From Gemmatimonadaceae bacterium (GTDB lineage Bacteria; Gemmatimonadota; Gemmatimonadetes; Gemmatimonadales; Gemmatimonadaceae): DNA of 34,947 nucleotides. How positions within the stretch are numbered: position 1 is the first letter of the stretch; every line of letters begins with the position of its first letter. The notes under the pieces were generated by a model. The model was not told the origin of the DNA. It saw only the letters and a list, made by a program, of their open reading frames with translations, and ran no database searches. Of the stretch, positions 6,884 through 9,046 are shown piece by piece. The stretch is taken from the NCBI GenBank assembly GCA_947457545.1, contig CANGXD010000023.1:1-34947 (forward strand), in the 5' to 3' direction. The position numbers and the translations under genes are program-made.

Positions 6884-8098
6884 ATGCGACGTCTTCGCCC
6901 GATTCTCTTCTGGACCCACTTGGTCGCTGGCGTCGTCGCCGGCGCCGTGGTCCTCATCATGTCGGTCACGGGCGTCCTGTTGACGTACCAGAAGCAGATG
7001 ACGCTTTGGGCCGACTTGCGGGGCGTCGAGGCGGGGCCGCCGGCACCTGGTGCTGTCCCGCTCAGTTCCGATTCACTGGTCCGCCTGGTGGCATCGCGCT
7101 CGGAAAAGACACCAACGTCGGCAATCTGGCGTAATGGTGCTTCGATGCCGGTAGAGTTCCAGTTCGGACGAGAGGGTCGGGAGTACGTCAGCGCCTACAC
7201 CGGGGCGGTCGTCGGCACGGGAAGCGCCGGCATGCGGAAGGTGTTCAGCGTGGCCACCGACTGGCACCGCTGGCTCGCAATGAAGGACGACGCGCGCAAA
7301 ACGGGACGCGCCATCACGGGATGGTCGAACGTGGCGTTCCTCGTCTTGGTGCTCACCGGGATGGTGCTCTGGTGGCCGCGCAACCTCACGTGGACCTCGG
7401 TGCGCAGCGTCCTCTGGTTCCGCCGGGCGGAGACGGCCAAGGCGCGCGACTTCAACTGGCACAACGTGATCGGGATCTGGAGTGCGCTACCGCTGGCCGC
7501 GATCGTGGCCAGTGGCGCGGTGATCTCCTTTCCGTGGGCGAGCGATCTGGTCTATCGCGCCGTCGGCGAGGCGCCGCCGCCGCGTGCGCCGGAAGGTGGA
7601 TCGTCCCCCCGGACCGCCGAGGGTGCGGCGGGGGGGCGGGAGCGTCCGTCGGCGCCGGTGGCTGGGCGCACGACCGACAATACGCTGCTGGTGGGCGACG
7701 TGCCGGCGCTCGCAGCGGCGCGCATGTCCGACTGGCGCGCGGTATCCCTGGCGTGGCCCAAGACCAGCGAGGCGCCGCTGGTCTATACCATCGACCGCGG
7801 CATGGGCGGCGAGCCCACGAAGCGCGCGACGCTCACGATGTCGCGCACCGGTGAGCCCACCAAGTGGCAGCCATTCGACTCGCTCAGCACCGGCCGGCGC
7901 GCGCGCAACGTCATGCGCTTCACGCACACCGGCGAGGTGCTGGGCTTCTGGGGGCAGACGCTCGCCGGCCTGGTATCGCTCGGGGCGGCGGTGCTCGTGT
8001 ACACGGGGTTGCTGCTGTCGCTGCGCCGGTTGCTCGCGTGGCGCCGCCGCACCGCGCGCGCTACGGCGTCACGTCAGCCCGACGCACTGCGCGCTTAG
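6884..8098 (+). CDS. PepSY-associated transmembrane protein (PiuB-like, iron-linked)
   Basis: This 404-residue integral membrane protein has the layout of the PepSY-TM family: an N-terminal membrane helix with an early His ([17 protein letters not shown], about 8-34), a periplasmic PepSY region, a pair of central helices with conserved histidines ([19 protein letters not shown]) and a final helix near 355-385 ([14 protein letters not shown]). Family members are often found beside siderophore receptors and are thought to act as inner-membrane ferric-siderophore reductases that bind haem through such histidines. A low-complexity linker rich in Pro, Ala, Arg and Gly occupies about residues 225-265. 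A Fur-like box upstream supports iron control. No siderophore receptor is adjacent, so the substrate is open. Its 3' end overlaps the LPOR gene by 30 bp, tail to tail. Confidence 0.85.
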
Positions 8099-9046
8099 CG
8101 TCCACAGTCGCTCGCCCAGCTGCTGGTCCTGCGCCCGCGCGGTCAGCGGCTGCGCGAAGGCCGCGCGCCCTTCCTTCTGGCGATTGCCCCAGCTCCAGTG
8201 CACGCCGCTGCGGGCGCCGAAGGCGTCGTCCGCGACAACCTGCGCGAGTCGATCACCGGCGAGCGTCTGCGTGACGTACCCCTTGGTGATGTTCTTCTGA
8301 AACCACGGGAAAATGCGCTGGAACGCCGGCGGGGTATGGCGAAAGAGTGGCGTGTCGGCCACGCACCCCGGGTAGAGCGTATTGAACACGATGCCAGTGC
8401 GCTCGTGAAAACGGCGATGCAGTTCGCGTCCCGTAATCATGTTGCACAGCTTGCTGTCCTTGTACGCCTTGCCAGGCTTGAAGGCCTTGCCGTTGATCAT
8501 GGCAATCGGCGCTTTGAAGCCCGCTTCGAGTCCTTCCAGATTCCCGATATCGGCTGGCGCAGGAATGGGGATCTTGCCACCGAACTCTTCGTAGTTCGCC
8601 GTCACGGTGCCGAGGATGATGAGACGGCGCGAACGGTGCGTGCTGCGTTCGAGATCGGGGAGCAGCAGGTTGGCCAGCAGGAAGTGCCCGAAGTGGTTGG
8701 TGGCCACACTGATTTCGTAGCCTTCGGGGGAACGCTGGGCTTCCGTGAGCCGTGGCAGATAGACGGCGGCGTTGCACACGAGCGCATCGAGCGACCGGCC
8801 GGTGGCGCGGAACGCGTCGACGAAGTCGCGCACGCTGCGCTGCGAGCCGAGATCGATCTGCAGCAGCGTGCGCTGGGCCGGCGCGATGCCCAGCGCATCG
8901 GCAGCCGCAGCAGCCTTTGCCAGATCTCGGCAGGCCATCACGACATGCCAGCCGCGATTGGCCAGCGCTAGGGCGCCATAGAGCCCGACGCCTGACGAGG
9001 CGCCGGTGATGACACAGGTGGGGGCGGAAACGGCAGCGGTCGACAT
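8069..9046 (-). CDS. por: Light-dependent protochlorophyllide oxidoreductase (LPOR)
   Basis: The 325-residue protein is a short-chain dehydrogenase whose sequence fits LPOR rather than a generic SDR. It has the NADPH-binding TGASSGVG (14-21), CNAA (91-94), [13 protein letters not shown] (118-130), the catalytic AYKDSK with Tyr195 and Lys199, and the LPOR-typical cysteines in KLCNM (Cys201) and YPGCVADT (Cys228). The segment [15 protein letters not shown] and the C-terminal GVHWSWGN are also characteristic. The enzyme reduces protochlorophyllide to chlorophyllide only in light. ATG 9046 gives the usual family length (about 320-335). No bacteriochlorophyll genes are visible nearby, so it stands alone. 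A related SDR acting on another substrate is the main alternative; the LPOR-specific motifs make that less likely. Confidence 0.85.

Follow-up and report, generated by a model that had tools for sequence, protein, structure and literature searches.

This locus raises the question of why a gene for a light-dependent NADPH:protochlorophyllide oxidoreductase (LPOR) should stand alone in DNA of the Gemmatimonadota. The stretch of DNA analyzed here, 34,947 nucleotides long and called the window below, is an entire contig (contig 23, C23) of a 4.63-Mb assembly that comprises 321 contigs and is 85.8% complete. The host, ascribed to the Gemmatimonadota in a preliminary description made from the window alone, was indeed a member of that phylum and was placed in the genus Gemmatimonas. 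The preliminary description had left two readings side by side: either a phototroph uses LPOR as an alternative to the BchLNB enzyme (DPOR), or a nonphototroph keeps it for some other reaction.

We began with the identity of the gene, which occupies positions 8069..9046 on the minus strand and consists of 325 codons plus a stop codon lying within these coordinates. An alternative upstream ATG would give a protein of 384 amino acids (aa); because alignments to relatives and profiles start no earlier than residues 1 to 9 of the 325-aa form, we preferred the shorter one. The protein matched model TIGR01289 (EC 1.3.1.33) at 482.1 bits (E value = 8.5e-145; curated equivalog cutoff, 331.35), and the best model other than TIGR01289 reached 125.9 bits. 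Crystal structures of cyanobacterial LPORs matched from residue 7 or 9 to residue 324 (E values of 1e-138 to 1e-144), with LPOR chains scoring up to 483 bits and the best non-LPOR chain scoring 69 bits. A chance match to the LPOR family is excluded by the profile and structure scores, and the gene is an LPOR, as had been proposed. A retinol-dehydrogenase-like short-chain dehydrogenase/reductase (SDR), the alternative identity raised at the outset, was ruled out: the protein does not group with such enzymes (482 versus 126 bits for profiles and 483 versus 69 bits for structures).

The residues told the same story. The catalytic YxxxK pair is intact (Tyr195 and Lys199), Cys39, Cys91, Cys201, and Cys228 are all there, the NADPH motif GASSGVGLY (GASSGVG type) starts at residue 15, and the segments KNITKGYV and GVHWSWGN start at residues 251 and 281; Tyr195, Lys199, Cys201, Cys228, and KNITKGYV were thus all found as first described. 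LPORs carry an extra loop ahead of the catalytic tyrosine relative to other SDRs, and in a single comparison the distance from the Asn-Ala motif to the tyrosine was 103 residues in the window protein versus 80 residues in one SDR encoded by the host. LPORs have four conserved cysteines (PMC7947762, figure legend). Across 98 aligned LPORs (nine of them second copies out of one genome), Thr147, Tyr195, Lys199, and Cys228 did not vary, so that the YxxxK tyrosine and lysine were kept in 98 of 98, and the cysteines were retained in 94 (Cys39), 69 (Cys91), 91 (Cys201), and 98 (Cys228) sequences. We take these four positions to be the conserved cysteines of the family; with a count of only 69/98, Cys91 is therefore not family defining. 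The GC content of the gene (65.6%) equals that of its surroundings (65.4% for the whole window), and there is therefore no sign of a recent arrival.

The flanking genes are the PepSY and PP2C genes first named, which Pfam gives as PepSY_TM and PP2C. The PepSY_TM gene (6884..8098, plus strand), assigned by its Pfam match and by gene order in relatives, marks a conserved locus, and we use the gene as a locus marker only. Its 3′ end and that of the LPOR gene converge and, by the open reading frame (ORF) coordinates, overlap by 30 bp (8069..8098) in the window; the two ends lie apart in Gemmatimonas genome G003 and others. On the other side lies a divergent PP2C-type phosphatase gene (9163..10101, plus strand; exact start uncertain), assigned by profile matches and by gene order in relatives. 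The earlier remark that no photosynthesis gene is in view also stood: none of the 28 other window ORFs, hand-picked for the profile scan so that small genes may be missed, matched a photosynthesis family (26 by Pfam and two by NCBIfam only), and no match fell on the window contig when the genome was searched for Photo_RC, BchL, BchN, and BchB.

We then looked at the rest of the assembly for bchLNB and a photosynthesis cluster, a check suggested in the preliminary description, and found BchL, BchN, BchB, puf, and bch matches on two other contigs. Contig 127 holds PufL, PufM, PufC, BchC, BchX, BchY, and BchO, and contig 56 holds BchB, BchL, BchH, BchN, AcsF, BchM, and PuhB, each over its curated cutoff (for AcsF, TIGR02029, 443.8 bits versus 192.5). 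Contig 56 also holds a PUCC-family protein, and a BchZ-like stretch on contig 127 was matched by the BchB model only, and weakly. The gene order bchNBHLM, acsF, PUCC family (lhaA), and puh agrees with the Gemmatimonas photosynthesis cluster described in PMC7844134. The host is phototrophic. Because all three DPOR genes sit in the same genome, LPOR adds to DPOR rather than replacing it, and because the photosynthesis genes are on other contigs, the appearance of LPOR alone in Gemmatimonadota DNA is an effect of the window. Of the two readings, the first is supported, with LPOR as an alternative only in a qualified sense, since BchLNB is present as well; the second is contradicted, and a nonphototroph carrying LPOR was rejected for this host, whose own assembly has reaction center, bacteriochlorophyll, and DPOR genes. 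Given the completeness of 85.8% and the 321 contigs, it is binning, rather than assembly, that ties the photosynthesis contigs to the LPOR contig.

As described in PMC7947762, aerobic anoxygenic phototrophs that bear LPOR have the three DPOR subunits and a type II reaction center, with AcsF and/or BchE present and RuBisCO and/or phosphoribulokinase (PRK) absent. The host has the three DPOR subunits, a type II reaction center, and AcsF. It also has one match to the RuBisCO_large model, on contig 58 (positions 5262 to 6086, locus L243; 161 bits versus a cutoff of 30.1). Because this model also matches in Bacillus subtilis and Gemmatimonas phototrophica reportedly has a RuBisCO-like protein (PMC7844134), the contig 58 match may likewise be a RuBisCO-like protein.

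The association of LPOR with phototrophy extended across the genus and the phylum. In the genus, LPOR was found in 12 of 30 genomes (E values up to 1e-20) and PufLM in 23 of 30; LPOR occurred in 12/23 PufLM-positive versus 0/7 PufLM-negative genomes (Fisher test, P value = 0.024, with kinship ignored). In a phylum sample of 395 genomes, where five candidates were scored per genome, LPOR was found in 15 (E values up to 1e-60) and Photo_RC over its cutoff in 44 (45 at an E value of 0.001). All 15 were among the 44 Photo_RC-positive genomes, versus 0 of the 351 others (P value = 4e-16, with kinship ignored and on the assumption that both searches drew the same 395 genomes); in one of the 15, G348, the Photo_RC match is a fragment only. 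LPOR without a reaction center match was thus seen in none of the 30 genus genomes and none of the 395 phylum-sample genomes. Conversely, LPOR was unmatched in 29 of the 44 reaction center genomes, which marks it as a dispensable, optional addition, although some of these absences may be assembly gaps. Among 18 LPOR genomes checked, BchN was over the cutoff in 17 and BchB in 16, the exceptions being G007 (both subunits; 57% complete) and G004 (BchB a fragment; 70% complete); BchL, searched in the genus only, was over the cutoff in all 12 LPOR genomes. The bchN genes of G002, G004, G012, G024, G167, G205, and G297 each have one stop within the match, perhaps where the profile overruns the true end. 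In G010, contig 274 carries BchL over the cutoff and PufLM is unmatched, perhaps a gap (79% complete, about 630 contigs).

A tree of LPOR proteins divided the Gemmatimonas sequences. It was built from 72 of the 98 sequences, with the nine second copies and 17 close cyanobacteria dropped beforehand; the sequences were the best matches to the window protein (best 80 of 546) plus loci from the genus and phylum searches, and because of this choice cyanobacteria and proteobacteria are unevenly sampled. A tree with an SDR outgroup gave an outgroup branch length of 10 and no usable root, and the 72-LPOR tree was read without it. One group of 10 sequences (type A; support, 100/99) contains eight Gemmatimonas LPORs, including the window copy, and two from another genus of the family. 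A second group (type B; 100/99) contains four Gemmatimonas LPORs and is placed, with weaker support, among the beta-proteobacteria. Type A and the cyanobacteria were split from all other noncyanobacterial rows at 96/83. Constraining the eight type A and four type B Gemmatimonas sequences to group together was rejected (p-AU = 0.014), a value to be taken as a lenient guide, as several of the constrained groups, A versus B included, were named after the tree had been seen. We consider it probable that Gemmatimonas holds two LPOR lineages and that they arrived separately. Outside both types are L150, L151, L114, and L153, Gemmatimonadaceae LPORs on long branches that could be extra acquisitions. 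Two labels in the tree call for care: L137 comes from a metagenome-assembled genome (MAG) titled Bordetella parapertussis, perhaps a mislabeled environmental genome, and L078 is a type B LPOR although its MAG bears the title G. phototrophica, unlike the LPOR of G003, which we take to be G. phototrophica AP64.

The eight type A Gemmatimonas genomes (the host, G000, and G003, G012, G014, G015, G016, G020, and G021) share one chromosomal locus. LPOR adjoins the same PP2C gene in all eight, and the seven other proteins are 87 to 99% identical to the window copy, with the reading frame kept. The PepSY gene follows LPOR, directly or at an interval, in seven of the eight; it is only partly matched (60%) in G015, and a patatin-like gene comes directly after LPOR in G012. 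G016 and G020 have the flanking genes of the window copy in the same order, at 91 to 98% identity. In G003, a genome on one contig, LPOR lies at 3.63 Mb and the photosynthesis genes lie at 1.56 to 1.59 Mb, some 2.0 Mb away. These results indicate that an LPOR set apart from the photosynthesis genes is normal for type A in Gemmatimonas.

The same site can be recognized in genomes that have no LPOR there. PepSY and PP2C are adjacent in G006, G008, and G013, all without LPOR, and lie more than 2 kb apart, with no LPOR between them, in G002 and G009; a PepSY gene beside PP2C was unmatched in G001, G007, and G026. When G006 and G008 were aligned to the LPOR-bearing genomes, the PP2C side was common up to GGCAAGC and divergent beyond it. 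The pattern of occupied and empty sites is that of one insertion, or of losses, at one site, and gain and loss are indistinguishable in it. No description of the conserved locus was found in PMC7947762, within a literature search that covered open-license papers; the terms LPOR and protochlorophyllide are absent from the main texts of PMC11406998, PMC8547001, PMC9426454, PMC12817894, and PMC7844134.

The region upstream of LPOR (9047..9165, minus strand), common to the divergent PP2C gene, contains a conserved block. The most conserved part, CATAGTCGAGCAGATTGCTCCCGTAT (9090..9115, minus strand), is a candidate promoter or regulatory element. It was kept in G003, G014, G016, G020, and G021, was weaker in G015, and was hardly kept in G012, so that it accompanies LPOR in seven of the eight type A Gemmatimonas genomes. 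Its core pattern, with up to one mismatch allowed, occurs at one place in the host genome; the control, the pattern reversed, was likewise found once, and this count alone therefore proves little. The block scored 43.6 bits in the window versus at most 9.4 bits in four loci without LPOR, and no match over 9 bits was found in the scanned photosynthesis contigs of G000 and G003. By eye, a similar TATATTGCCGA..CTCCC stretch stands upstream of the LPORs of G167 and G205, which belong to another genus and lie at other genomic places. We infer that the block may be part of a promoter region that came along with the gene. Sites of the PpsR type (TGT, a spacer of 10 to 14, and ACA) were found in none of seven LPOR upstream regions, and a relaxed form of the pattern gave a single match, in G016; a scan for the sigma-70 consensus over positions 8000 to 9400 gave nothing.

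Very probably, the gene provides a phototrophic Gemmatimonas with a working LPOR, the activity of the window copy being predicted from its sequence. In the LPOR reaction, a hydride passes from NADPH to C17 and a proton is added at C18. NADPH would bind the Rossmann fold (GASSGVGLY), with protochlorophyllide bound as well; once the bound pigment has absorbed a photon, hydride and proton would be transferred across the C17=C18 bond to give chlorophyllide, which BchXYZ and later enzymes would turn into bacteriochlorophyll a. Because the BchLNB enzyme of the same cell is oxygen sensitive and operates in the dark, LPOR most likely sustains pigment synthesis in the light under oxygen, when DPOR is hampered, a benefit of the kind proposed in PMC7947762.

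Could the gene instead be idle, an intact relic heading for loss while DPOR supplies all chlorophyllide? Such a relic would be in keeping with the complete DPOR of the host, with two other phototrophs of the genus, G006 and G008, which do without LPOR and have an empty site, and with the inactivity of the G. phototrophica enzyme (GpLPOR) in vivo in a foreign host (PMC7947762). The conservation described above points the other way, however, as frame and locus are kept in all eight type A Gemmatimonas genomes, with the other seven copies 87 to 99% identical, and the upstream block is kept alongside in seven of them, and we hold an idle relic to be highly improbable. Just as little credence is due to an LPOR-derived SDR whose host makes no bacteriochlorophyll and uses the enzyme for another reaction. 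The photosynthesis genes in the same assembly, the intact catalytic residues, the constant company of a reaction center match in the genomes searched, and the in vitro activity of the orthologue GpLPOR (PMC7947762) all argue against it, whereas the lack of an adjoining photosynthesis gene in the window and the distance of about 2 Mb in G003 are what it could call upon. Finally, that the LPOR contig was binned in from another organism, as a fragmented assembly of 321 contigs might allow, is extremely improbable given the 91 to 98% identity and shared order of the flanking genes with G016 and G020, the GC contents of 65.6% and 65.4% for LPOR and window, and the finding of LPOR at this locus in G003 too, whose genome is a single contig. 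The preferred reading thus stays that of a phototroph with a working LPOR.

The origin of the type A gene was approached with constrained trees, whose P values are likewise lenient guides. Held with the beta-proteobacteria, type A was not rejected (p-AU = 0.40), so that a donor from that group is neither supported nor rejected. With the alpha-proteobacterial set, which had L152 inside, type A was weakly rejected (P value = 0.036). A single clade of all Gemmatimonadota LPORs was rejected (P value = 1.4e-51) with a set that included L152, a sequence that groups with Sandarakinorhabdus; without L152, neither types A and B plus the others (P value = 0.175) nor type A plus the others (P value = 0.33) was rejected. 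A group of type B and only the proteobacterial rows was rejected (P value = 6e-44), with L152 on the other side. This sequence (L152/L193, from the Gemmatimonadota genome G297) shares 85.6% DNA identity with L129 over 1,278 bases, with no match in the rest of the contig; it could reflect transfer or misbinning.

Trees were also made from rpoB and PufLM proteins extracted by tblastn. In the rpoB tree (23 of the 30 genus genomes had a match; G000 had none), the seven type A genomes did not form one clade in the best tree (two changes), and a single type A clade was not rejected (P value = 0.30). The PufLM tree (21 genomes, seven of type A, with G004 and G020 left out for broken puf genes) gave three changes, and again a single type A clade was not rejected (P value = 0.45). 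In PMC7947762, the LPOR of G. phototrophica is basal to noncyanobacterial LPORs, a placement called unclear there, and that of strain TET16 falls among the beta-proteobacteria; a beta-proteobacterial donor is favored for the Gemmatimonas LPOR (PMC7947762; repeated in PMC12654162). Our tree agrees with the placement given in PMC7947762 and adds members. A bolder scenario, which we put forward tentatively and think unlikely as a whole, although two separate lineages are likely, is that phototrophic Gemmatimonadota gained LPOR at least twice and that type A may have come by a route apart from the photosynthesis cluster, perhaps directly from cyanobacteria, the gene and its upstream region being inserted together at a single chromosomal site in Gemmatimonas. 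If true, a separate route for type A would correct the printed reading of a beta-proteobacterial origin (PMC7947762 and PMC12654162).

Set against known systems, the window LPOR looks like a further case of a known, experimentally tested enzyme type and not like a stray gene in a nonphotosynthetic host. According to PMC7947762, 36 LPORs were found outside oxygenic phototrophs, G. phototrophica included, and 10 of the 11 enzymes tested showed activity in one or more assays; GpLPOR showed light-driven activity in vitro (0.11 U/mg) and failed in vivo to complement a Rhodobacter capsulatus bchB mutant. GpLPOR, from G. phototrophica AP64 (taken to be G003), is the closest of the counterparts compared here: it is 88% identical to the window LPOR over 321 to 324 residues and occupies the same locus, with PP2C on one side and PepSY and patatin genes on the other. 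It belongs to another species, and activity was demonstrated for GpLPOR, whereas that of the window copy is predicted. Another phototroph of the genus, Gemmatimonas groenlandica TET16 (which we take to be G002), has an LPOR that is 73 to 74% identical, sits at another locus, and falls on the type B branch among the beta-proteobacteria. The LPOR of Thermosynechococcus (6l1h and 6rnv) matches window residues 8 to 324 (E value = 4.6e-144) and has the same motifs, although its host is oxygenic, unlike the window host. Possibly new, and modest, is the presence of two LPOR lineages within one genus, which is worth keeping together with the occupied and empty states of the type A locus. DPOR (BchL, BchN, and BchB), encoded in the same genome, carries out the same chemical step as LPOR but is structurally distinct, light independent, and oxygen sensitive (PMC7947762), and related Gemmatimonas phototrophs, some with a type A LPOR, some with type B, and some with none, offer a natural comparison of the benefit of LPOR alongside it.
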